The notes beneath the pieces were generated by a model that saw only the letters and a program-made list of their open reading frames with translations, was not told the origin of the DNA and ran no database searches. A program made the position numbers and the translations under genes. Shown here one piece after another: positions 1-17,871 of a stretch of DNA of 24,114 nucleotides. Source of the stretch: a virus; the IMG/VR virus record IMGVR_UViG_3300043446_001736, positions 1-24,114 of that record; one strand, given 5' to 3'. Position 1 is the first letter of the stretch. Every line of letters begins with the position of its first letter.

Positions 1-303
1 CTCGTCTTGTAATAAAAGATCCCATAGAGGTTCAGTCTCCATTAATTGGTTTAGGTGATTCTCATCTTTAATGTCTTTGTAAACACTAACATTTAAAAAA
101 TCTAATTTTTGATATCCACGTTTTTCAGCTATTTTATAATCAATGTTAGCAAGATTATCTATAGGATTATAGGGAATGTCTGTTAAGTAAATACCGGTAT
201 TATGAGGAACTAGTTTTTCGTCTTGAGACCTACTGGCTTTAATATGTTTTATTACAGCCAATGCTTTTTCTCTGTCGGCAAAATCAATGTCAATATCTGG
301 CAT
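1..303 (-). CDS. DnaE-like (family C polymerase palm-motif) protein, partial
   Basis: The reading frame opens at 303 and runs off the left edge, giving the first 101 residues. Its very N-terminus reads MPDIDIDF (residues 1-8), which matches the PDxDxDF block of bacterial DNA polymerase III alpha; in E. coli DnaE this block carries catalytic Asp401 and Asp403. Residues 61-71 (KRGYQKLDFLN) resemble the block around the third catalytic Asp555 (VKFDFLG type). A TGIYLTDIP stretch lies between them. The spacing between blocks is about 60 residues, against roughly 150 in DnaE, and no PHP domain precedes them, so this is a much reduced version. Its ATG shares one base with the preceding stop (TAATG), so it is translationally coupled as the last visible gene of the minus-strand operon. 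Whether it polymerises DNA is unknown. The motif match is seen directly; homology is inferred. Confidence 0.7.
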   Translation of the reverse strand, partial: MPDIDIDFADREKALAVIKHIKASRSQDEKLVPHNTGIYLTDIPYNPIDNLANIDYKIAEKRGYQKLDFLNVSVYKDIKDENHLNQLMETEPLWDLLLQDE

Positions 304-494
304 TAGTGTTTAACCTCTGATTCAAAAAGTAATAAAGGTAAATTTTCCTGTAGGTATACTGAATATTGCTCAGCGTCATCATTAGTTTCAAATCCACTTA
401 ATTTAACATATATTGTACGATCTTCCTCACTTAATATAACTTCCATATCAAGTTCAGTTTTTTGAATATCGCTTGGCGGAACAGGGTGTGTCAT
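303..494 (-). CDS. small conserved phage protein, unknown function
   Basis: This encodes a 63-residue acidic protein with no signal peptide or membrane segment. Its start overlaps the stop of the upstream zinc-finger gene as ATGA (491-494), and its stop overlaps the start of the DnaE-like gene by one base. This tight double overlap on the operon strand is the main evidence that it is real. The sequence alternates short beta-like stretches (MEVILSEEDRTIYVKLSGF) with a C-terminal helix. I do not recognise a family. Its position suggests it is made together with the DnaE-like protein. Confidence 0.65.
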   Translation of the reverse strand: MTHPVPPSDIQKTELDMEVILSEEDRTIYVKLSGFETNDDAEQYSVYLQENLPLLLFESEVKH

Positions 495-3972: not shown

Positions 3973-5433
3973 TTAACGCCAGTCTATCTTCTCAATCGTG
4001 AACGGATAGCGAGCTTCCTTGTAAAACTTTTTGCGCTGAGTAAGGTGCCTTTTGGCATACTTGCAGGTACTTGTGATGTCCCAGATCTGTACGAAGTCTT
4101 TGTCTTCAGCTCGCCTAATACCTCGCCCAATACTTTGTATAACCCTTGTAAAGCTCTTTCCGGGTTCCAAAAGAACCAGATTAAAAATCCTAGGGATATT
4201 AATACCCACAGCGGCCACACCATAAGTCGCCACAATAATCTTGTTATTAGCAATCGCAATTTCATCGTATTCTTCTTTTCTATCTTTAGTTTTAACTTCA
4301 CCCGATATAAACACGCTATCAGGAATTTCATTTACTAGAAATTTACCAGTATCTATTCTATTGACTAGAACTAGTGTGTTACCACTGTCTGCAATTTTAC
4401 TAATTAATTTAGATAGATAGATCATACGATCTTCGTCTGTTACAAGATACTTATATTCTTCAGCATAACTCTTAAATTCAGGCAAGTCAATCATTTGCAT
4501 AATAGCAACATGACATTGACTAAGCACACCTTTTTCTTGTAAGTCGTGTGCAGCCACCTGATGCACTACCGGACCTATGCTGACAAATATCTGTTCATAC
4601 TCAAACGGTTCTTTAGGCACTGTGCCTGTTAAACCCCATCGTATTGGTGCATTGCATAGATTCTGTGTTAATAAATTTTTAAGCACATTGGCTTTGGCCA
4701 TATGTACTTCGTCAACAATAACAGTTTGAACACCGTCTAAAAATTCTGCCAGTGTTAATAACTCTGCTTCGTGATTCTTTGATTTTTTATCTAAAATGTT
4801 AAGACTTTGCCATGTACAAATAGTGTGCGTACGACCTAATTCTTTACGGTCTCCGTAATACACACCTACATCTAAACCACAGTTGATAAAGTCTTCTTCC
4901 GTTTGTTCTACCAGACTTTTATTAGGTACAATAGTGATTGTGCGACCATGAGGTTCGCATAATTTAGATAGTGTAGCAGTTGTAATTGTCTTACCAAATC
5001 CTGTAGCAATTTCCTGCAAACACTGAGGATTTTGCAAAAATTTATTAATAACTTCTACTTGGTCATCGCGTAGTCTAATAGGTTGTCCTTCATACCTGTG
5101 ACCTTTAGGCCAACAACGATCTCCCCAAAAGTCTTCTTTTATTTCAGGAAATGTTAACTGTATAGGATGTCGATTGTCTTCAACATCAGTAACCTCAACT
5201 CCATTATTTTCCAGGATTTCAAGTATCTTAGGTAACTGCGTCAAGTAGCCGTTACCTCCTAAACCAAACAGACTCACTGATCCGTCCCAACGACCTAGTT
5301 TGTAAGCAGGGCGATATCTAGCAGTGGGATCTTCGTACTTAAATGTGTTAGCTAGCTTACGCCTAATTTCAACAGGCAAACCTTCTAACTTAAGATTTAC
5401 TTCGTCTCTAATGGTAATTTTACACGATGGCAT
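3973..5433 (-). CDS. uvsW: UvsW-type recombination helicase
   Basis: This encodes a superfamily 2 DNA/RNA helicase of 486 residues; T4 UvsW is of similar length. In T4 it unwinds branched recombination intermediates and R-loops and drives the switch to recombination-dependent replication. Visible motifs in order are a Q-like LRDDQVEVI (121-129), Walker A EIATGFGKT (141-149), DEVH box (241-244), motif III GLTGT (267-271), VATYGVAAVGINIP (401-414) and motif VI QSIGRGIRRAEDK (433-445). The first 110 residues match the small N-terminal domain expected of UvsW (YKLGRWDGSVSLF). It overlaps the upstream 393-residue gene by 14 bp. All catalytic motifs look intact. Confidence 0.93.
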   Translation of the reverse strand: MPSCKITIRDEVNLKLEGLPVEIRRKLANTFKYEDPTARYRPAYKLGRWDGSVSLFGLGGNGYLTQLPKILEILENNGVEVTDVEDNRHPIQLTFPEIKEDFWGDRCWPKGHRYEGQPIRLRDDQVEVINKFLQNPQCLQEIATGFGKTITTATLSKLCEPHGRTITIVPNKSLVEQTEEDFINCGLDVGVYYGDRKELGRTHTICTWQSLNILDKKSKNHEAELLTLAEFLDGVQTVIVDEVHMAKANVLKNLLTQNLCNAPIRWGLTGTVPKEPFEYEQIFVSIGPVVHQVAAHDLQEKGVLSQCHVAIMQMIDLPEFKSYAEEYKYLVTDEDRMIYLSKLISKIADSGNTLVLVNRIDTGKFLVNEIPDSVFISGEVKTKDRKEEYDEIAIANNKIIVATYGVAAVGINIPRIFNLVLLEPGKSFTRVIQSIGRGIRRAEDKDFVQIWDITSTCKYAKRHLTQRKKFYKEARYPFTIEKIDWR

Positions 5434-7527: not shown

Positions 7528-8346
7528 ATGAGAAAATTTGCCGTAGTGACTACTTTTCATGAAAAAGGTCTGCACCAATATGCTCAAAAAATGATTGATA
7601 CATTTTGTGTCATGTGGCCGGAGGAAGTAACTCTCCACATATATCCAGAATTATGCAATCCTGCAATTAGAAACCATAATCATGTTACACTAAAACGTCT
7701 TGAAGAACTAGACGACTTAATGAAGTTTAAAGAACGCTGGCGAAACGTGCCTAAAGCTAACGGAGATGTCAGCGGCGACCCCGTGCGTAGTCTACGCAAA
7801 GATGCTGGTAAGGGTTTTAAATGGGATGCGGTACGCTTTGCACATAAAGTCTATGCTATTTTTCATTGTGCTAAAGAAACCGACGCTGATGTGCTGTTTT
7901 GGATGGACGCAGATATGATTTGCCATAGTCCTATTACAATGGATGAGATAAATCAACTAGTACCTGAAGACCGAGACCTTTGTTTTTTAGGTAGAGAAGG
8001 AAAATTTAGTGAGTGTGGTCTCTATGCTATGAATTTACACAGTCCACACCTTAGACAATTCTTAGAAAACTTCCAACGCTTCTACGATGATGCAGAAAAT
8101 GGAATTTTTACGCTTGAAGAATGGCATGACAGTTTTGTTTTTGACGCAGTTAGACAAACTGTACCTTTACTTGAATTAGATTGGAGCAAAGGTCTAATAA
8201 AAGGTGAAGGACATCCTCTAATTAACAGTCGTTGGGGTGCGTATCTTGATCACCTCAAAGGCGCACGTAAAAAAACAGGTCGTAGTTTGCAAACAGACCT
8301 CCGAGTCAATCGCACAGAACAATATTGGATGGAAAATCAACAATGA
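7528..8346 (+). CDS. GT-A-type glycosyltransferase
   Basis: This encodes 272 residues beginning with a beta strand (KFAVVTTFHEKGL) and carrying a DxD-type metal/nucleotide-sugar motif in VLFWMDADMICHSP (about residues 129-142). EWHDSFVFD further on resembles the acceptor/catalytic segment of GT-A enzymes. It likely transfers a sugar from a nucleotide donor in the cytoplasm. An AGGA ribosome-binding site precedes the ATG. It is the first gene of the plus-strand cluster, which runs opposite to all flanking phage core genes, and it ends with an ATGA overlap into the FkbM methyltransferase. The specific sugar is unknown. Confidence 0.75.
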   Translation: MRKFAVVTTFHEKGLHQYAQKMIDTFCVMWPEEVTLHIYPELCNPAIRNHNHVTLKRLEELDDLMKFKERWRNVPKANGDVSGDPVRSLRKDAGKGFKWDAVRFAHKVYAIFHCAKETDADVLFWMDADMICHSPITMDEINQLVPEDRDLCFLGREGKFSECGLYAMNLHSPHLRQFLENFQRFYDDAENGIFTLEEWHDSFVFDAVRQTVPLLELDWSKGLIKGEGHPLINSRWGAYLDHLKGARKKTGRSLQTDLRVNRTEQYWMENQQ

Positions 8347-8990
8347 AAGAAAGTTACGGATTTTGGTTTCCAGACTATGACAATCATTTCCCACGATTAT
8401 TGGCAAAAAGTCTGCAAAAAGAAGGTATATTACGTTATCAATGGCGTGCTAGAGATGCTGCTATTGAAAACTGTATCAACAAACGAGTTTGCATTGACAT
8501 AGGAGCCAATGTTGGTTTATGGAGTTGTGATCTAGTCAAGTCTTTTCGCAATGTTGTTGCCTTTGAGCCAGTAGAAGAATTTAGAGAATGCTTTAAGATG
8601 AACGTTATTGAAGGAAACTACAGTTTATATCCTATGGCATTGGGAAATACTGAAAGTTTTATTAATATGAACATAGTAGAAGGCAATACTGGTCATAGTC
8701 ATGTTGATCCTACCAGTGTGGGACAAGGCCGGATACCACTTAAGACGCTAGATAGTTTTAATTTTACTGAAGTTGACATGATTAAAATAGATGTTGAAGG
8801 CTATGAGCGTGATATATTGTTAGGAGCCGAAAAAACTATCAAAACAAATAGACCAGTAATGGCTATAGAACAGCAAACACACGAATACCAAGACGATCAA
8901 CAAGATTTTCCCTGTGTACGCCTATTAGAGTCGTGGGGTTATACTGTAGTTGGACAATTTAATAAGGATTGGATACTTAAATGGCTTTAA
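8343..8990 (+). CDS. FkbM-family SAM-dependent methyltransferase
   Basis: I choose the ATG at 8343, giving 215 residues, because it forms an ATGA overlap with the preceding stop; the in-frame ATG at 8325 would lie further inside the upstream gene. The SAM-binding block VCIDIGANVGLWSCDL, the acidic strand-2 end VVAFEPVEEF, and the FkbM signatures IPLKTLDSF and DMIKIDVEGYERDILLGAEKT are all present. FkbM enzymes O-methylate sugars or small molecules. Here the neighbours are glycosyltransferases, so methylation of a glycan residue is likely. It overlaps the next gene by 10 bp. Confidence 0.85.
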   Translation: MKESYGFWFPDYDNHFPRLLAKSLQKEGILRYQWRARDAAIENCINKRVCIDIGANVGLWSCDLVKSFRNVVAFEPVEEFRECFKMNVIEGNYSLYPMALGNTESFINMNIVEGNTGHSHVDPTSVGQGRIPLKTLDSFNFTEVDMIKIDVEGYERDILLGAEKTIKTNRPVMAIEQQTHEYQDDQQDFPCVRLLESWGYTVVGQFNKDWILKWL

Positions 8991-9958
8991 AAATTAGATT
9001 TTACAGTGATGCTTACAAACCTAAACGTGCTAGTCATAGACTTCGTGGAGAATTAACAGCCTATTCACTAGCAGACCAAGGATACGATAGTAAAATCCTT
9101 ACAGACTGGTCTGAAGTTGATCGAGACACTATTGTTATCTTTTTAAAACGTAGTATGCCGGCTAGTATACAACGTGCTAAAGACTTAGGTGCCAAAACTG
9201 TTTATGACTTGTGTGATAATAAATTTGATGAAAAGGAAGAATACGGTCCTAACTGTCAATTAGTAGATGTTGTCAGCGTTAACAGTGTTAACATGGGTAT
9301 TAGTACATTAGAAAACACAGGTAGACGTAGTGTTGTCATGCCTGATCCGTTTGAACGTCGTATACTAGAACCTAAGTTTAATCCAGGACACGAAATGCAG
9401 TTGCTATGGTTTGGTAGCCAAAGCAGTTTAGGATTTTTACCTATTGTCGAAATGTGGAAACGTCTAGAAGCTGAAGTTGGTAATTATAGATTTCATATGA
9501 TTATGAGCAAACCTGATCGCGTATGGAGCAAAATGCGTAAACGTGCAGACAAAGGCGAAATTACAGGTGTAAATTTCAATCGATTGACATTATACGAATG
9601 GACTTGGGATTTACAAGGAGAATTATTAGATAAGTGCGACATGGTTGTTATGCCAGTTGTGGTAGATAATTATAGAACAGAAACAAAAAGTGCCAATCGT
9701 GTTATCGATAGTCTAGCATCTGGCAGATATGTAATTACAAGCCCTCTAGCCAGTTATTTAGAATTTAGTCCCTATACTTGGCAGGACCCAGATTATATTG
9801 CGGGTATTAAAGATGCATTTTTTAATCCAGAAAAGACATTAGAAAAAATACGTGCAGGACAAAAATATACAATAGAAAATTTTTCTGCAGAAAAGTTAAG
9901 TAAAAATTGGATTGAAGAAATACTAAAGGAACTAGGATGGGAAGCCCGAATGATTTAA
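8981..9958 (+). CDS. GT-B-type (group 1-like) glycosyltransferase
   Basis: This encodes 325 residues in two Rossmann-like halves. The N-terminal half (YDLCDNKFDEKEEYG; VVMPDPFERR) and the C-terminal half (MQLLWFGSQSSLGFLPIVEM; then CDMVVMPVVVDNYRTETKSA and NRVIDSLASGRYVITSP) follow the layout of glycosyltransferase group 1. The K-S-A-N-R-x-x-D-S-L-A-S-G-R segment corresponds to the nucleotide-binding E-x7-E region with altered residues. It most likely acts with the adjacent glycosyltransferases and methyltransferases on a glycan. It starts 10 bp inside the FkbM gene and its end overlaps the next gene by 22 bp. Substrate unknown. Confidence 0.75.
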   Translation: MALKIRFYSDAYKPKRASHRLRGELTAYSLADQGYDSKILTDWSEVDRDTIVIFLKRSMPASIQRAKDLGAKTVYDLCDNKFDEKEEYGPNCQLVDVVSVNSVNMGISTLENTGRRSVVMPDPFERRILEPKFNPGHEMQLLWFGSQSSLGFLPIVEMWKRLEAEVGNYRFHMIMSKPDRVWSKMRKRADKGEITGVNFNRLTLYEWTWDLQGELLDKCDMVVMPVVVDNYRTETKSANRVIDSLASGRYVITSPLASYLEFSPYTWQDPDYIAGIKDAFFNPEKTLEKIRAGQKYTIENFSAEKLSKNWIEEILKELGWEARMI

Positions 9959-10524
9959 TTTATATCAAAGAAGTTTGTCCTAATGTAACTGGACATGTGT
10001 TAGAAATTGGTGCAAGAGAAAACACCACAGGTTTTAGGGTACACTTTCAAGACAAGGTAGCATCATATACCGGCACAGATATTGAAGCAGGTCAAGATGT
10101 TGATGTCCAGTGTGATTTGTTAGACGCCAACAATCCATTGCCTAAAAATTATTACGATTTAGTAATCTGTTGTAGTGTTATGGAGCATGTTCCTAATCCG
10201 TGGGACCTAGCTAAGAATATTGCAGACTTGGTCAAACCAGGAGGACAATTGTATATTTGTGTCCCATGGTCATGGCGCTATCATCCGTATCCAGATGACT
10301 ACTATAGATTTAGTTTTAGAGCTATAGAATATCTCTATCCGAATTTTAATTGGGACCGTTATGCTTATACTACAGAAAATACAGGCGACTTTAAATGGGT
10401 AGCTAAGGATGCTATCAGTGATAGAAAAATGGTCTATGCATTACATGATGATAATGGACGTAAGATTAAAAAGTATCTGTCATACTTACTGATCAACATG
10501 ATAGGAACTAAAAATGTTGCGTGA
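9937..10524 (+). CDS. class I SAM-dependent methyltransferase
   Basis: This encodes 195 residues. Motif I is VLEIGARENTTGFRVHF (about 22-38). Asp at the end of strand 2 occurs in YTGTDIE, and the post-motifs DLVICCSVMEHVPNPWDLAK and LVKPGGQLYICVPW fit the type 11 methyltransferase family. The aromatic segment WRYHPYPDDYYRFS is shared with methyltransferases of surface-polysaccharide loci in my recollection. The start lies within the end of the upstream glycosyltransferase and is preceded by AAAGGA. It is probably a sugar methyltransferase. All recognisable SAM-binding elements are intact. Confidence 0.78.
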   Translation: MGSPNDLIYIKEVCPNVTGHVLEIGARENTTGFRVHFQDKVASYTGTDIEAGQDVDVQCDLLDANNPLPKNYYDLVICCSVMEHVPNPWDLAKNIADLVKPGGQLYICVPWSWRYHPYPDDYYRFSFRAIEYLYPNFNWDRYAYTTENTGDFKWVAKDAISDRKMVYALHDDNGRKIKKYLSYLLINMIGTKNVA

Positions 10525-11065
10525 GGCAGTAGAAAAGATTGCAGGCCAACTTGTTAGATTACATTTAGGTTGCGGTCATCAAAAATTTACAGGCTATATT
10601 AATGTCGACGGTGAGTATATGAGCTACGATAGTGATATTGTCATACATGACATTAGCAAACCGTTTCCATTAGATGACAATACAGTAGATGAAATACTAA
10701 CTGTACATGTCATAGAACATTTTAGCAGGGAAATTCCTCCTGCTATGTTTAAAGAGTTTTATCGTATTTGCAAACCTGGCGGATTTGTAGCAATGGAATG
10801 GCCTGATTTGCTTAAAATGTGCCAGGAAGTAGTTAACAATCCTGATTGTTTTTGGACTCATGATAAACGCCTAGTTAAACGTACAGTGTCAGGGATCTAC
10901 GGTGATTTTGCCAGATATCCAGATCCAGTGATGTTGCACAAGTGGGGTTATAGTGCAGAAAGCATGATGAGATTATTACGTGATGCAGGGTTTACCAATG
11001 TCTACAGCGAAGCTAATCATCATCCTAAATCTAGTATAGATAGCAGAGTAGTTGCATACAAATAA
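10514..11065 (+). CDS. class I SAM-dependent methyltransferase (second copy)
   Basis: This encodes 183 residues with motif I RLHLGCGHQKFTGYINVD (about 14-31) and the type 11 signatures DEILTVHVIEHFSRE and FYRICKPGGFVAMEWPD. The C-terminal HKWGYSAESMMRLLRDAGFT also matches this family, where it closes the active site. It is adjacent to another methyltransferase and overlaps it by 11 bp, preceded by an AGGA ribosome-binding site. It is too divergent from its neighbour for a recent duplication. Its TAATG junction shares one base with the start of the kinase gene. It is likely to act on a glycan or nucleotide-sugar; target unproven. Confidence 0.78.
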   Translation: MLREAVEKIAGQLVRLHLGCGHQKFTGYINVDGEYMSYDSDIVIHDISKPFPLDDNTVDEILTVHVIEHFSREIPPAMFKEFYRICKPGGFVAMEWPDLLKMCQEVVNNPDCFWTHDKRLVKRTVSGIYGDFARYPDPVMLHKWGYSAESMMRLLRDAGFTNVYSEANHHPKSSIDSRVVAYK

Positions 11066-11808
11066 TGGCTGCTAAGGTGATAAAAGAATTTATAGGATTC
11101 TCCGGCAATCAAATCTATCTAATGAAAAAAGATAGATTGTTTGTTAGAAAGTCTGGTAATGTTCTTAGAAATGTCGAGCGTATGTATGCCTTGGAACATC
11201 TCTTACCTATGCCTAAAATTTATCAGTATAGTAAAAATAAATTTGATATGGAATACATAAACGGTTTAGATATGAAGTCATATCTAAAATCTTACAGTTA
11301 TGATCACTTATTAAATTTTATTTTGGCAACCTTAGATAAGTTATCACAAAATAAAACATTAAAAGATTACACAGAAATTTATCAAACTAAATTAGACGAA
11401 ATAGATTTTAGCAATGCAGAATTTACTAAAGATGATCTATTAGAATCACTACCTAAACAACTACCGCAAACAAATTATTTTGGAGATTTCACACTAGAAA
11501 ATATTTTATTTCATGAACAGCGTGGGTTTATGATGATAGACGGACAAACCAGTGATTATGACAGTTACATTTTTGACATAGCCAAACTTCGTCAAGATTT
11601 AGAATGCCACTGGTTTATGCGCCATTCTCCTATACGTATTGATGTAAAATTACAGCATATACAGCAAGGTATATTTGAACAATATCCAGAAGCAGACAAT
11701 GTATATTTGTTAATTCTAATGTTAATGCGTGTTAGTAGATATGCTAAACACGGATCTTTTGAATACAATTACTTAATTGACAGAGCAAACACACTATGGA
11801 AATTATAA
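11065..11808 (+). CDS. APH/choline-kinase-fold small-molecule kinase
   Basis: This encodes 247 residues. RLFVRKSG (25-32) supplies the ATP-binding lysine (Lys29), NYFGDFTLENILF (137-149) is the catalytic loop with Asp141 and Asn146, and FMMIDGQTSDYDSYIFDIAKL (155-175) holds the metal-binding Asp159 followed by the D-x-A-K/R segment typical of APH/LicA-like kinases. The histidine usually before G-D is Phe139 here. Such enzymes phosphorylate choline, ethanolamine, sugars or aminoglycosides. The following gene is a nucleotidylyltransferase overlapping by 13 bp, which points to a kinase plus activation step as in LicA-LicC or AmgK-MurU. Substrate unknown. Confidence 0.7.
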   Translation: MAAKVIKEFIGFSGNQIYLMKKDRLFVRKSGNVLRNVERMYALEHLLPMPKIYQYSKNKFDMEYINGLDMKSYLKSYSYDHLLNFILATLDKLSQNKTLKDYTEIYQTKLDEIDFSNAEFTKDDLLESLPKQLPQTNYFGDFTLENILFHEQRGFMMIDGQTSDYDSYIFDIAKLRQDLECHWFMRHSPIRIDVKLQHIQQGIFEQYPEADNVYLLILMLMRVSRYAKHGSFEYNYLIDRANTLWKL

Positions 11809-12488
11809 TGCCAGCTGCGGGGTTATCTCGCAGATTCCCTAATATGAAACCAAAATACTTACTAGAAAGTGGCTCTGGTAAGTTAATGTACGAACGTGCA
11901 GTAGAACCTTTTATTGATACAAATAGTATTACAATAGGTATATTAAAGGCGCACAACGATCTTTATCAAGTTGAAAACACAATTAAAAAAACTTACGGTA
12001 ATAAGATCGCAGTTGTTGTTTTAGACAAAGAAACTACAGGACCAGCTGACACAGTTTATCAAATTGTTAGTAAAATAGGTTTAACAGAAGAAGAAATACT
12101 AATCAAAGACTGCGACAGTTTCTTCAATCACGACTATCAAGAAGGTAATTATATTTGTGTTACCAGCATCATGCAACACGAAATATTGCGTAATTTGGCA
12201 GCTAAAAGTTATATTGTCAGCAATGATCAAGGCATTATTACCAGCATTATTGAAAAACAAGTAGTATCAGATAAATTTTGTGTGGGCGGATATAAATTTG
12301 AATCGGCTATATTATTTTGTGATGCATTTGAAAAATTAAAAGACAATCACATAGAAGAAATATTTGTCAGCCATTGTATTGAAGAATGTCTTAACAATGA
12401 ACATATCTTTAAAGAAAGCCTAGTGCGTGACTATGTTGATGTTGGTACTGCCGAAGCATGGTTAGAATATATAGAGAATAAGAAATGA
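11796..12488 (+). CDS. sugar/alcohol-phosphate nucleotidylyltransferase
   Basis: This encodes 230 residues starting MEIIMPAAGLSRRFPNMKPK, the G-x-G/S-x-R ... K signature of nucleotidyltransferases (signature lysine around 18-20). ETTGPADTVYQ (79-89) is the base-recognition block, ILIKDCDSFF (101-110) contains the metal-binding Asp, and DYVDVGTAEAWLEY near the end is the second metal/product region. I prefer the start at 11796 because MEIIMPAAG is a normal family N-terminus. The family makes CDP-, UDP- or dTDP-activated compounds from NTP and a phosphorylated substrate. Pairing with the preceding kinase suggests two successive activation steps. The length is close to LicC/MurU-type enzymes. 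Confidence 0.78.
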   Translation: MEIIMPAAGLSRRFPNMKPKYLLESGSGKLMYERAVEPFIDTNSITIGILKAHNDLYQVENTIKKTYGNKIAVVVLDKETTGPADTVYQIVSKIGLTEEEILIKDCDSFFNHDYQEGNYICVTSIMQHEILRNLAAKSYIVSNDQGIITSIIEKQVVSDKFCVGGYKFESAILFCDAFEKLKDNHIEEIFVSHCIEECLNNEHIFKESLVRDYVDVGTAEAWLEYIENKK

Positions 12489-13363
12489 ATTTAGCAATTT
12501 TTTATACAGGCGATATAAGACACAATCAACATATTGCAAAGACTAATCATAACTTTTTAATTACGGCACTAAAAGAAGTATGTGAAGTAAAAATATATAA
12601 TTTTACTAAAGGTGATCCAGAAAGAGGCCTTTGTCCTTATGACGATGGCGAACCAGACAATACATATCGTAGAGGACAAGGCGGAGCAATACAGGTTTGG
12701 GATTTTTGTCGAGGTGTTGATCGAACAACAGAAGACATAGTATTAAGGTTAAGAACAGATGTTTGGTTTACCAAATCTAGTATAAAAGCCGTTGTAGAAG
12801 AATTAAAATTAATGATAGCAGGCGAATCTGGTATTGCATATTTTGGCAGTGACTGGGTTAATCAAAGTGCCGGCATTGAATACAAAAGATTACCTGTACA
12901 CATTGATCACGACGGTGTTGTTCAAGACTTTATTATAATGGCTAAAAGAGAAAGTGTTGAAAAAACTGCTACGGTTATAGAACGGTTAAATGAAGTAATA
13001 CCAAATAAACGACGTAGTGGCAATAAGGCCTTTAGGTATATTATACCAGTAGAACTAGAACCTTGGCATGCTAATAGTGAAATCTTATCTGCAAAAGGAC
13101 TTAGAAAACAGTTAACGCCAGTACATAGAATATTATGCCATATGTGGTTAATTAGAAAAGATTATGATAATTATCCATCTGACAGCGAAGTATGTAAAGA
13201 CTATATACAAAGCTATATTGTAGATGGTAAAAATCGTTTAAGTAAAAAGAATTTAGTTGATCCTCATCCTATGCAAGAGGGTATAGATTGGTGGCGTAGT
13301 ACACACGGGTGGGCTCCTAAAAAATTAGAAATTGGAGAATGGTGGGCATGGCAATCGGAGTAG
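12485..13363 (+). CDS. WavE-like glycosyltransferase, first tandem paralogue
   Basis: This encodes 292 residues. An N-terminal strand (LAIFYTGDIRHN) is followed by GGAIQVWDFCRGVD and EDIVLRLRTDVWFTKSSI (about residues 90-107), where R-T-D resembles the conserved acidic site of WavE-type LPS-synthesis proteins. The same blocks occur in the next gene, so the two are tandem duplicates. This copy has an additional C-terminal region of some 90 residues rich in Trp (GIDWWRSTHGWAPKKLEIGE). It starts with an ATGA overlap (12485-12488). It is probably a glycosyltransferase acting on a surface glycan; the WavE relation is from motif resemblance only. Confidence 0.6.
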   Translation: MNLAIFYTGDIRHNQHIAKTNHNFLITALKEVCEVKIYNFTKGDPERGLCPYDDGEPDNTYRRGQGGAIQVWDFCRGVDRTTEDIVLRLRTDVWFTKSSIKAVVEELKLMIAGESGIAYFGSDWVNQSAGIEYKRLPVHIDHDGVVQDFIIMAKRESVEKTATVIERLNEVIPNKRRSGNKAFRYIIPVELEPWHANSEILSAKGLRKQLTPVHRILCHMWLIRKDYDNYPSDSEVCKDYIQSYIVDGKNRLSKKNLVDPHPMQEGIDWWRSTHGWAPKKLEIGEWWAWQSE

Positions 13364-14022
13364 TTCAAATTGGCCTTAAAAGATTTTATGATTCAGCCAA
13401 ATCTAATCATCAAAAGTTATTGAATACTTTAAACAGTCGTTATGCGATAAATGTCTATGATTATTATAGAGATGCAGATAGTCCTAATTGTCCTTTTGAT
13501 CTTAGCGGCAAAGTACAAGTTTGGGACTTCTTAACTGCTAGAGATAAAATTAACGAAGATATTATTATTAAATTAAGATCCGATGTATATTTTACTCAAA
13601 GTAGTATTGAAGTTATTTGTAACGAAATAGATAACGTACAACGTAACGAATGTGATGTAGTATATCTAGGTATTGATTTTATGAATGACTACAATAAAGT
13701 TCATAAAAGAGAAGATGCAAGATCTGTAGCAAAGACTACTGATTTTGTTGTTATAGCTAGACGTTCTTGTTTATTAGATACGGATACAGTAACTGAAAGT
13801 CTTAAAGCTGTAAAAGATAAAAGTGGTAATAAAACATTCTATGCAATACTAACACCAGAGGCTAGGGCAGTTAAAGTTAGCTGCCAAATGTATTTGTTTA
13901 GAAAAGAGTATGAGCAATTAGAAAGCTGGCAAATATATTGGGATTGGTGCAGCGAATATAAAAAATCTCAAGAAGCACAAACTTGGGTTTACAATAATAG
14001 GGATACAATAAATGCCTTCTGA
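13348..14022 (+). CDS. WavE-like glycosyltransferase, second tandem paralogue
   Basis: I place the start at 13348 (MAIGVVQIGLKRFYDSAK, 224 residues) because GGAG at 13334-13337 is correctly spaced for it but would touch an ATG at 13339. The blocks GKVQVWDFLTARD, EDIIIKLRSDVYFTQSSIEV and TDFVVIARRSC align by eye with GAIQVWDFCRGVD, EDIVLRLRTDVWFTKSSIKA and QDFIIMAKRES of the upstream gene. It lacks that gene's long C-terminal part. The shared L-R-S/T-D centre is the likely active-site region. The two may transfer related sugars in sequence or form a heteromer. Function is inferred from the paralogue and the cluster. Confidence 0.6.
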   Translation: MAIGVVQIGLKRFYDSAKSNHQKLLNTLNSRYAINVYDYYRDADSPNCPFDLSGKVQVWDFLTARDKINEDIIIKLRSDVYFTQSSIEVICNEIDNVQRNECDVVYLGIDFMNDYNKVHKREDARSVAKTTDFVVIARRSCLLDTDTVTESLKAVKDKSGNKTFYAILTPEARAVKVSCQMYLFRKEYEQLESWQIYWDWCSEYKKSQEAQTWVYNNRDTINAF

Positions 14023-14611
14023 ATATTATTTAAAAAGTGTAGAAATAGGTCGACAGTTTCAGGCAAACAACACATCGTGGGGCGGCGATGACTGTAAAAA
14101 TTATCACTTACAGATTAGATTTCTTATGGACAAATACAATGCCAAAACTGTTTTAGATTACGGTTGTGGTAAAGGGCGTCAATATCAAAACTTAGTTCCG
14201 TATGGATTACCAAACGATCAAATTACTGAGCCTATGACTTTTACAACTAGAATTAATGCAGAGTCTGTACATTGCTACGATCCGTGTGTGCCAGAATTTG
14301 ATAAAGAGCCTATAGGACAAAAGTTTGATGCTGTAATTTGTACACAGGTATTAGGCAGTATACCAGATGTTGATATTGCATGGATTAAAGATAAGTTTAT
14401 GAACTATGCTACTAAGTTTGTGTTTATAGGGTTGCATAGTCCAACAGCACCAGTTAAACGTAAAAAGTTAATGTATGATCCGCAATACCTAACACATCCT
14501 AGAAGTATCGAATGGTATCAAGAAAAATTTAACAACTGGACAGGACCTAACTTATATTGGTGGTTTAGAGACACAGAGCATCATATTAACAATTGGTATC
14601 AGGTCAAGTAA
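14012..14611 (+). CDS. class I SAM-dependent methyltransferase (last gene of plus cluster)
   Basis: This encodes 199 residues with the SAM-binding motif KTVLDYGCGKGRQYQNL (about 45-61), an acidic strand in VHCYDPCVPEFD and KFDAVICTQVLGSIPDVD as the post-motif region. The C-terminal third is unusual for the family, with several tryptophans (WYQEKFNNWTGPNLYWWF) and histidines. It begins 11 bp inside the preceding gene, with AGGGA upstream. Its 3' end overlaps the 3' end of the convergent minus-strand gene by 13 bp. It is the fourth methyltransferase of the plus cluster; target probably a glycan, unproven. Confidence 0.75.
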   Translation: MPSEYYLKSVEIGRQFQANNTSWGGDDCKNYHLQIRFLMDKYNAKTVLDYGCGKGRQYQNLVPYGLPNDQITEPMTFTTRINAESVHCYDPCVPEFDKEPIGQKFDAVICTQVLGSIPDVDIAWIKDKFMNYATKFVFIGLHSPTAPVKRKKLMYDPQYLTHPRSIEWYQEKFNNWTGPNLYWWFRDTEHHINNWYQVK

Positions 14612-15498
14612 GGTAAAAACTTTTTATAAATTAGACCTTGTCTGCTTTCTTCATCAGTCCAGTGACAAGCAGCTAGGTCATAAAGCCACTGATTTCGATC
14701 TGGAAACAACGGATTGTTTAATTGATTAACATGTTTGTTTGCAACATCCCAGCAGACGCTACTAGTATCGTCAACGTACAACGGCACCCCAGATACTACA
14801 CTAGCAACTCCGCTAGAACTGTTAAAAACAAATGCAGCTTTTGCTCTTTGTAGATCTGTTAATAAAGGAATAACTGTGCTGTCACTGATTGTAACTCCAG
14901 GTTGTAACAACGGAGTTAAATCAGCAACCTTTCCAGGGTGTGGTCTTAACACAATAGGCAAATTGCTGTATTGTCGAACTTCGATAATTTTACGTCTAGC
15001 CCACTCGACAGGATCTAATCCTTTCATTCCCCATCCACCATCACGTTGTATTAGAAATAAAAGATAATCTCCCTGGTCCCTCCAAGATTGTATAGTTAAA
15101 CCTAAATCCTGACTAAGTTGGTTCCATTTACTAGCATCACTATTTTTGTTAGCATACTGACTGGTATCATAGTAAACTCCGTTAATACTATAACGCAAAT
15201 ACTTACTGTCTGTATCGGAAAACTTAAAACAATTGGCATCTATAGCCATAATATGATTGCCGGCTTGTTTTTGTAACTCAACTAATTCTGCACGAAACTT
15301 AATATTTTGTGTTGACAGTATAGGACTAGGCCAGCCTAATATAACTGCTAGTTTAGCAGGTCGGTAGATATAATCTCTTTCTAATAGAGCCCATGCGCCA
15401 ACATGTGCAGCACCTTGATAAAAAGCTGTTAGTGTATCAACTTTTCTACCAGGGTTTTGTTTTTGTAAGCTGCTAAGGTAAACAACAACATCATACAT
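14599..15498 (-). CDS. capsule-polysaccharide-type protein (paralogue)
   Basis: This encodes 299 residues with the same block order as 6644-7489: PIVLRPHPGKVADL, then KAAFVFNSSSGVASVVSGVP, then NPLFPDRNQWLYDLAACHWTDEE close to the C-terminus. These are hallmarks of capsule-polysaccharide/CDP-glycerol-transferase-like GT-B proteins. The N-terminal half is divergent. It starts 8 bp inside the end of the upstream fusion gene and is the last gene of the minus-strand run that began with uvsX. It probably transfers a sugar to a surface polymer. Confidence 0.72.
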   Translation of the reverse strand: MYDVVVYLSSLQKQNPGRKVDTLTAFYQGAAHVGAWALLERDYIYRPAKLAVILGWPSPILSTQNIKFRAELVELQKQAGNHIMAIDANCFKFSDTDSKYLRYSINGVYYDTSQYANKNSDASKWNQLSQDLGLTIQSWRDQGDYLLFLIQRDGGWGMKGLDPVEWARRKIIEVRQYSNLPIVLRPHPGKVADLTPLLQPGVTISDSTVIPLLTDLQRAKAAFVFNSSSGVASVVSGVPLYVDDTSSVCWDVANKHVNQLNNPLFPDRNQWLYDLAACHWTDEESRQGLIYKKFLPYLT

Positions 15499-17116
15499 CT
15501 TCGTTTAATATTTTCCAAGCTGTGCCGTCGCGCATTTCTGCTTCAGTGAATTGACAATAGGCTAAATGTGCCGCCCATGCTTCTACTTCATCTAAGCTAG
15601 GATATTTAGGTTGTTCAATAAGCGATAAATCACTGTGACACATACTTTGTGCTGCATTAGGTCCAAGTGTAAATGCTGGTTTACCGTGTAATATAGCCTC
15701 TGTAGCTGCAATACTGTTATAAGTTACTAAGCAGTGTACATCTTTATCTAACGCCATTTCAATAGAATCTACTGTAACTCGATCTCTACGACTAGGTTTT
15801 GTTCTAATAATAATTTCTCTGTCTGTGTATTTTTTAATTGTTTCAACAGTAGTTTTTAACCACTCGTCAAGATTTTGTCCAAAGCACTCCATAGCTTTTG
15901 CACTAGGAGGACACAATAGTATTGTTGATCCTGTTTTAAATTTTTTCTTTTGATAACCAGTAGCAGCTAGTCTATCTAACGGACGCTCAATAATAGGACC
16001 GCAGGCCTGCATAGCATTTTTAGTAATTCTATGATAAAGTTTTTTACGACCATTACCAAAATATCCTGTATCTATGTAATAGTAATTACGACCAATTTCT
16101 TCACACTTTCTCATGTGTTTACTTTTGGTAATGCCTCTAAAAACAACAGGAGTCATAGATTGCTCTACTTTGTCGTAATTAGTAATTTGGCCGCCGCTGC
16201 CTGTTATAAACGATACCATAAATGGATCATAAGGATGTCCTTTATTATCCTCAGGATCACGACCTCCATCTACTGCATACACAGCATTGTTGTTCAACAT
16301 TTTTAATTCCTTAACTACGTCATCTTCTTTAACATTAAACCATTCGCCTGCAGGGTCAACTCGATACTTTAATACGTTATTAAATAAATTTTTTATTTCT
16401 TGTGGTATATTTACAAATGGATCTGTAGGAGCTTCTGGTAACTTAGAATCTTCATAATTTAATTTTTCTAAAATCCAGTTGGCACCGTACTCACATTTAA
16501 CATAGTTAGGGAACCATGGGCCGCCTTCCGTGTAGTGTATTGCCTTAGGCTTACCATCTTCGGGTTCTTTATGCCACCCTACTAACCAGTTCCATTCACA
16601 CTTTAATTCACCAATTTGATTATCTTTAAGCCATTCAAAACGATGTAAATATTGTCCAGATTTTTCATTAACTAGTTTCGGTGTAAGTTCTTTATTTTGA
16701 GGGTGGGCACAATTCCATAGTATTACACTACTCCAATTTTTTCTAGGATATTGAAACTGTTCTTTACCATCCATCTTAACAGTGCTTTTAGGTTTATAAT
16801 CATGTTTAACAACCATAACAGCATATTGGTCATCTGCCTGATCAAATAATTCTTTAATGTCTTCTACAAATATAATATCGCAGTCACAGAATACTGCCCA
16901 ACCTTTATAATTCATCAAGTGAGGTACTAAAAAACGAGTAAAGGTAAACTCTGTTGATGCTAACGGATCAATTGGGCGCCAATAGATTTCTTTACTTCTA
17001 AGGTCTTTTTGTTTTAAAGGCACTACATCAGCACTAGATTGTCTTGATACAATACTATGTCTACAAACTTGATAAGCAATGTCCTCTCTAGAATCCCATC
17101 CTACAAATACTTTCAT
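15491..17116 (-). CDS. two-domain glycosyltransferase: GT-A head plus capsule-type tail
   Basis: This encodes 541 residues. Residues 1-220 form a GT-A-type domain: KVFVGWDSREDIAYQVCRHS at the start, TEFTFTRFLVPHL (55-67), the DxD motif in WAVFCDCDIIFVED (73-86), and a GGPWFPNY segment near 198-205. Residues about 275-541 form a capsule-type GT-B-like domain: EIIIRTKPSRRDRV (434-447), HCLVTYNSIAATEAILHGKP (461-480), then CQFTEAEMRDG. That second half is the third paralogue of the capsule-type proteins, with T-K-P-S in place of R-P-H-P. The fusion couples two transferase activities. Start and stop overlap the neighbouring genes by 4 and 8 bp. Confidence 0.75.
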   Translation of the reverse strand: MKVFVGWDSREDIAYQVCRHSIVSRQSSADVVPLKQKDLRSKEIYWRPIDPLASTEFTFTRFLVPHLMNYKGWAVFCDCDIIFVEDIKELFDQADDQYAVMVVKHDYKPKSTVKMDGKEQFQYPRKNWSSVILWNCAHPQNKELTPKLVNEKSGQYLHRFEWLKDNQIGELKCEWNWLVGWHKEPEDGKPKAIHYTEGGPWFPNYVKCEYGANWILEKLNYEDSKLPEAPTDPFVNIPQEIKNLFNNVLKYRVDPAGEWFNVKEDDVVKELKMLNNNAVYAVDGGRDPEDNKGHPYDPFMVSFITGSGGQITNYDKVEQSMTPVVFRGITKSKHMRKCEEIGRNYYYIDTGYFGNGRKKLYHRITKNAMQACGPIIERPLDRLAATGYQKKKFKTGSTILLCPPSAKAMECFGQNLDEWLKTTVETIKKYTDREIIIRTKPSRRDRVTVDSIEMALDKDVHCLVTYNSIAATEAILHGKPAFTLGPNAAQSMCHSDLSLIEQPKYPSLDEVEAWAAHLAYCQFTEAEMRDGTAWKILNEDV

Positions 17117-17871
17117 TTTCGTTCTATATCCTCTTCAATACACAACTGACCAAATTGTACTTCTAAAATATGACATGGTTCAGCGGTATTGTTATACCCT
17201 CTATGCCATACAAGTGCTCCTATATCATAATCAGTATTTTCAAAAATTTGAATATCACCAGTAACACCGTTATATTCTGTCTCAACCCTGCACGAGCCTT
17301 TTAATACGTACCAATGTTCTGCTCGTAAGCGATGTCGTTGCATACTTAGGCTTTTTCCTGGTTCTATCACTAGCTCTTTAACTTTGTAAGTAATTTTATC
17401 GTCTAATACTCTGTACCAGCCCCAGGGTCTAATAGTTTTAGGATTTTTCCATTCTTCTAGGATCCAACTGCTAGAATTTTTCTTATCTATGCCACCTACT
17501 CCAAAAACAAATTCTAAGTGTAACATTTCCTTAAGAACATCCATTTCTGGAATGTTTTCTTTTGTACGATCACCGCCATTTGCAAAAATAATATGAGCAT
17601 TTGGGTATATAGCTCTTACTTTTCTGATAGCATCTTTAGCAGAATTATCGCTGTCGTTAAAGTTAATTACTCGATCAACAACGTGCAGTGCCGCAACAAT
17701 GTTGGCACGTTCTTCCCAATGCAAGAAAGGCCTACCCTTTTTACGGGTAAGCCATTCATCTGAGTTAATGCCAACGATTAATTTATCACCTAACTCTCGA
17801 GCAGAGTTAAAATATGCAATGTGTCCAGAATGGATAGGATCGAAACCGCCTGTAACCAAAACTATTTTCAT
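17113..17871 (-). CDS. cytidylyltransferase-cupin fusion protein
   Basis: This encodes 252 residues. Residues 1-140 match the RfaE-C/GCT-type nucleotidyltransferase fold: VTGGFDPIHSGHI (6-18) with the HxGH motif, VGINSDEWLTRKKGRPF (33-49), ANGGDRTKEN (97-106) and the K-N-S-S-S motif at 131-135. Residues 148-252 form a cupin like the C-terminal isomerase domain of ManC/type II phosphomannose isomerases: RPWGWYRVL, SLSMQRHRLRAEHWYVLKG and ALVWHRGYNN, with His180, Glu185 and His223 as probable metal ligands. It would join nucleotide activation and isomerisation of a sugar. It starts 8 bp after uvsY, so it probably shares its transcript. Confidence 0.82.
   Translation of the reverse strand: MKIVLVTGGFDPIHSGHIAYFNSARELGDKLIVGINSDEWLTRKKGRPFLHWEERANIVAALHVVDRVINFNDSDNSAKDAIRKVRAIYPNAHIIFANGGDRTKENIPEMDVLKEMLHLEFVFGVGGIDKKNSSSWILEEWKNPKTIRPWGWYRVLDDKITYKVKELVIEPGKSLSMQRHRLRAEHWYVLKGSCRVETEYNGVTGDIQIFENTDYDIGALVWHRGYNNTAEPCHILEVQFGQLCIEEDIERK

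Follow-up and report, generated by a model that had tools for sequence, protein, structure and literature searches.

A minimal DNA polymerase III alpha split over two genes has been described from sequence in the group 2.2 jumbo phages (Iyer et al., 2021; PMC7824862), for which the authors suggested a role in one-strand synthesis or repair and took the split to be a possible primitive state. A 172-aa alpha-like protein of phage CBB, CBB_328, was noted as truncated by Buttimer et al. (2017; PMC5259590), and we find it to be the partner half discussed below. Attai et al. (2018; PMC6102473) mentioned a Pol III alpha (gp316) in Atu_ph07. The split Pol III alpha is not mentioned in a 2026 review of jumbo phages, and within the open-access literature (subscription papers lay outside the search) we found no experimental papers on the split enzyme. 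The window analyzed here, i.e., the whole stretch of 24,114 nucleotides from a viral record, holds at its left edge a previously unrecorded member of this already described family; the split itself is not new.

The gene at the left edge of the window

The C-terminal half of the split DNA polymerase III alpha is encoded on the minus strand at positions 1..303 of the window, where an ATG at 303 opens a reading frame that runs off the left edge, so that 101 of its 192 codons lie inside. The sequence to the left, which a previous sequence-only reading of this DNA had called for, was supplied by an IMG/VR contig (L002) that is co-linear with the window: the shared part is identical and the neighboring genes are the same. 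In this contig the complete gene occupies L002:3001-3579, and its 192-aa product reads MPDIDIDFADREKALAVIKHIKASRSQDEKLVPHNTGIYL...QKLDFLN...FHLNGHG...LAMIRPAKRHL...YYFKKAHAVAYAMAIIVQMNLI....

The protein matches PHROG 11778 ("DNA polymerase"), with E=9e-35 for the partial and 2e-67 for the full sequence, and the RaK2 protein belongs to PHROG 11778 likewise. Relatives of this C-terminal half are found at no fewer than 545 IMG/VR loci and in at least 63 GenBank phage records; over the first 101 residues, the window copy is ~30-55% identical to the cultured members. When 84,980 bacterial and archaeal genomes were scanned with the family alignment, using few patterns, there was no cellular copy among the matches listed, the sole one being an ordinary full-length DnaE (L303). 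None of the defense-system families matched the protein. Pfam analysis of the full 192 aa revealed no PHP domain, as had been claimed from the partial sequence, and no other match; besides PHP, the beta-binding, OB and tau-binding parts are all missing from the chain. The GRGS nucleotide-binding motif is also not in this protein, which opens directly at MPDIDIDF.

Catalytic motifs and relationship to Pol III alpha

The sequence-only reading had pointed to two blocks, MPDIDIDF and QKLDFLN, as holding the three catalytic aspartates of family C polymerases. Both are indeed read in the 1-303 frame, at 280..303 and 91..111 (minus strand), and they align with residues 399-406 of E. coli alpha and with its KFDFLGL at 553-559, respectively. 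In this alignment, the numbering of which was confirmed on the MG1655 gene, phage D3, D5 and D68 correspond to E. coli D401, D403 and D555, in agreement with the assignment made earlier. The motif alignment further pairs K66 with K553, R135 and P136 with R639 and P640, K166 and H168 with K758 and H760, and Y172 with Y764. The much shorter spacing that had been remarked upon amounts to 63 residues between the second and the third catalytic Asp, vs. 152 in E. coli. Moreover, D3, D5, D7, H34, K66, D68, R135, P136, K138 and H168 are identical in all 157 distinct full-length homologues, and Y172 is kept in 155 of them; the family thus shows the opposite of the poor motif conservation that had been named beforehand as evidence against the relationship. 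The two motifs are not a product of chance.

A profile built from 83 homologues and run against the PDB chain sequences (177,635) gave nine matches for the C-terminal half, every one of them a DNA polymerase III alpha, including Mycobacterium 5lew and 7pu7, E. coli 2hnh, and Thermus 2hpi and 3e0d. These matches are collinear, running through the MPDIDIDF, KxDxL, RP and KxH..xY blocks. The individual profile scores are weak (best PDB E = 0.0037 for the C-terminal half and 0.027 for the partner), and therefore the structural test matters. The AlphaFold model of the C-terminal half reached a mean pLDDT of 93.3, and its PDB fold matches 1-15 in Foldseek were all Pol III alpha, the probabilities beyond them being at noise level; the TM-scores of the fold matches are ~0.4-0.5 for the halves, a consequence of each being a fragment. 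The modeled C-terminal half has the Pol beta-like palm and fingers fold known from Pol III alpha, and an unrelated fold, the other outcome envisaged in the earlier reading, was found neither by AlphaFold nor by the PDB fold search. Hence, the relationship of the C-terminal half to DnaE and family C, proposed at first from the letters of the partial gene, is supported by motif conservation, by profile searches in which Pol III alpha was the only hit among solved structures, and by fold matches.

The partner half and the genomic setting of the two genes

The DnaE palm needs a GRGS nucleotide-binding stretch directly before PDxDxDF. In the phages studied here, the GRGSS nucleotide-binding part is carried by a separate protein of ~160-180 aa, in which the motif G-x-GRGSSV-x-S is invariant and the C-terminal EFLK/EFLR corresponds to FERFL of E. 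coli (388-392). The profile of this partner aligns to E. coli 321-392 and the C-terminal half begins at 399; the two halves tile the catalytic core with a six-residue gap and zero overlap. The same complementarity is seen in Pfam PF07733, which the partner covers from ~11 to ~98 with a score above the curated cut-off and the C-terminal half from 98-101. Run against the 177,635 PDB sequences, the partner profile found Pol III alpha chains only. Its AlphaFold model has a pLDDT of 88.7, falling to ~81-83 around the GRGSS loop, and PDB fold matches 1-12 of this model consist entirely of Pol III alpha or PolC. A gene fusing the two halves was sought in all fetched loci, and none was found. Since the GRGS part of the palm is encoded by a separate gene in the same phages, the C-terminal half is one subunit of a catalytic core split over two genes, not a free-standing mini-polymerase. 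The miniature polymerase proposed in the sequence-only reading therefore stands as far as its family C palm is concerned, but the protein is incomplete, being the C-terminal subunit only, with its GRGS part on another gene.

We searched 27 records of relatives for the partner with Pfam PF07733. It was present in 16 of them, which are all 16 of the large genome records, while the other 11 are partial contigs, 65 to 191 kb long. A family B polymerase was found in exactly the same 16 records and in no others. The 16 include a 364-kb contig whose copy of the C-terminal half is 75% identical to that of the window. The partner is also encoded by 59 of the 60 listed GenBank phages that have the C-terminal half, W12-3 (a 109-kb record) being the lone exception. 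Homology and co-occurrence thus point to a pairing of the two proteins. The idea of a second polymerase, raised before on the strength of the T4-like setting, fits the finding that relatives encode a family B polymerase as well, but the C-terminal half alone is not a full enzyme.

Directly upstream of the polymerase gene, and sharing one base with it, lies a 63-aa ORF (303..494, minus strand) with no significant family match, whose counterparts are annotated as "virion structural protein" in some cultured relatives. A UvsW-type helicase (3973..5433, minus strand; Pfam ResIII 6e-19, Helicase_C 4e-10) is the conserved upstream neighbor, and the order from helicase to polymerase half is also annotated in RaK2. 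Across the window and L002, uvsW is followed by small genes, the 63-aa ORF, the C-terminal half, a reverse-strand ORF, a 269-aa ORF and a primase-like ORF; we identified the last three from their sequence and position. The same order is found in RaK2, PBECO4, CBB, PA5oct and others, where the virion protein and the primase are annotated, as is the helicase where the stretch reaches it. The C-terminal half is flanked by uvsW on one side and by the gp61 primase and gp41 helicase on the other. In both genomes examined, the partner lies near a gp44-type clamp loader: in the 364-kb relative a clamp-loader-like ORF, as read from the sequence, is found a few genes downstream of it, and in phage CBB it is annotated near the clamp loader likewise. 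Thus, both halves sit in replisome clusters, which are distant from each other. In the 364-kb relative (L119:3747-5573), the partner is followed by ORFs that appear GroES-like, MazG-like and gp44 clamp-loader-like, possibly a second replisome cluster.

The surroundings hold further genes that we record in their own right. Upstream of the polymerase half, positions 2210-2566 of the window code for a small cupin-like protein that matches PHROG 7851 ("cysteine dioxygenase") at E=3e-11. The region between uvsW and uvsX (7528-17871) appears to carry genes for glycan and sugar-nucleotide enzymes, read as putative glycosyltransferases, methyltransferases and nucleotidyltransferases, one of them apparently cupin-fused (17113-17871), which would be an unusual cargo for a T4-like core. 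Past the primase-like gene, an ORF at L002:5910-6302, starting with MNIWGINALNHGSSLAVFENSKL..., resembles a carbamoyltransferase of the NodU/CmcH type.

Possible function and comparison with known systems

We consider it probable that the protein at the left edge of the window contributes the C-terminal half, with Mg2+ binding and fingers, to a family C polymerase made of two proteins, which assemble non-covalently as an accessory polymerase. The two chains would associate without covalent linkage, with the palm closing at the loop between residues 392 and 399 of E. coli alpha. The GRGSS motif of the partner would bind the nucleotide triphosphate, the Asp triad would be provided by the C-terminal half, in which D3, D5 and D68 would hold the metals, and nucleotide addition would proceed by the usual two-metal mechanism. 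The assembled enzyme may perform a limited accessory job at the phage replisome, for instance in primer extension, gap filling or repair; such a limited role seems the most likely one, given the constant presence of a family B polymerase and the lack of the clamp, OB and tau parts. Counting against a two-chain enzyme are the absence of the clamp-binding, OB-fold and tau-binding parts of DnaE, the much shorter insert between the catalytic blocks, and the position of the two genes far apart in the genomes.

Breaks in the loop at which the palm would close are also seen in phages of Bacteroidota (records L306, PQ571274.1; L310, KC821604.1; and L311, MT074137.1). In Cellulophaga phage phiST (gp044/gp045) and Bacteroides phage BS-TP1, a DnaE of otherwise full size is broken at exactly the same loop, directly before PDxDxDF, and in Bacteroides phage DAC16 the unbroken DnaE has an insert at this loop. 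The C-terminal part of the BS-TP1 DnaE (L306:5966-7672) is without annotation in its record. The loop thus tolerates breaks in unrelated phages, and this supports the notion that the halves can work as separate chains. Unlike those of the jumbo-phage split, the broken ends of the phiST and BS-TP1 proteins carry extra sequence (tails). In the case of BS-TP1, the tail shows a weak resemblance to a Hint/intein domain (Pfam Intein_splicing E = 7e-4, below the cut-off), and no NCBIfam family matched it. This raises the possibility of a split intein at the origin of the jumbo-phage split.

More tentatively, and with the balance of our expectation on the other side, we propose that the two proteins reconstitute an active family C polymerase of ~350 residues that has no PHP domain, needs no clamp and would work with the family B replicase in one replisome, and that the split may go back to a lost split intein or to a primitive state. 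If so, this enzyme would rank among the smallest known. An active enzyme formed by the halves would reveal the minimum for a family C polymerase and provide mechanistic studies with a small, two-component form of it. It would also mean that polymerases of families B and C naturally share a replisome, with a bearing on how bacterial replication machineries are related to archaeal/eukaryotic-type ones. The family concerned is common (>500 IMG/VR loci) and is conserved among cultured phages infecting E. coli, Klebsiella and Pseudomonas.

It is unlikely, yet deserves to be weighed, that the halves assemble without polymerising and serve the family B replisome as a subunit with a structural or regulatory role, e.g., in binding the primer-template or in the hand-off from primase to gp43. 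A non-catalytic subunit would suit the family B polymerase found in every large record with both halves, the replisome clusters in which the C-terminal half adjoins primase and helicase and the partner adjoins the clamp loader, and the missing clamp-binding and OB parts of DnaE; however, the metal-binding Asp residues and GRGSS are strictly invariant, which would be unexpected if catalysis had been lost. Far less credible is a protein directed at the host, which would disturb host replication by mimicking or pairing with fragments of the host DnaE, or would enter the virion, as the virion annotation of some neighbors in relatives could hint. The partner half is encoded by the phage itself and co-occurs, the family is spread over phages of many different hosts, and the host DnaE is full-length, so that its own C-terminal half already occupies the place in question. 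The small size and the loss of most DnaE domains might also be taken for signs of a decaying remnant of a captured DnaE gene, a reading that is refuted by selection and conservation: both halves are under purifying selection, with a median dN/dS of 0.076 for the C-terminal half (92 closely related pairs) and 0.061 for the partner (13 closely related pairs), the active-site residues are invariant family-wide, and the C-terminal half is kept together with its partner in nearly all listed cultured phages (59/60). Least of all can the motifs be a chance match in an unrelated fold, since the weak single-sequence searches (Pfam PF07733 E = 0.18 for the partial protein, below the cut-off; phmmer against the PDB with no DnaE and just one irrelevant weak match) are overridden by the PDB profile search, the AlphaFold model and the fold search, which lead exclusively to Pol III alpha and refute this reading.

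The two-protein family C polymerase that we favor can be set against three known systems. With the split Pol III alpha of jumbo phages (PHROG 11778 and its partner, PHROG 11127), the window copy shares the family. The jumbo phages have the two-gene split, with an N-terminal NTP-binding and a C-terminal Mg2+/DNA-binding unit, and a family B polymerase and T4-like genes stand alongside; the same is true of the relatives of the window copy. Unlike the cultured members, the window copy comes from an uncultivated phage and lies on a 24-kb fragment without the partner gene. In comparison with the jumbo-phage split, the phiST and BS-TP1 halves keep PHP and the full C-terminal parts of DnaE, and their genes are close together. 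The DnaE proteins of E. coli, M. tuberculosis and Thermus have PDxDxDF, KxDFL, RP(G/A) and K(S/A)HxxxYA in the same order as the phage protein, and the predicted fold of the phage halves is, according to Foldseek, that of DnaE/Pol III alpha. DnaE is a single chain of ~1,100 aa with PHP, thumb, beta-binding, OB and tau-binding parts, whereas the phage split polymerase consists of two chains totaling ~350 aa and has none of those parts.
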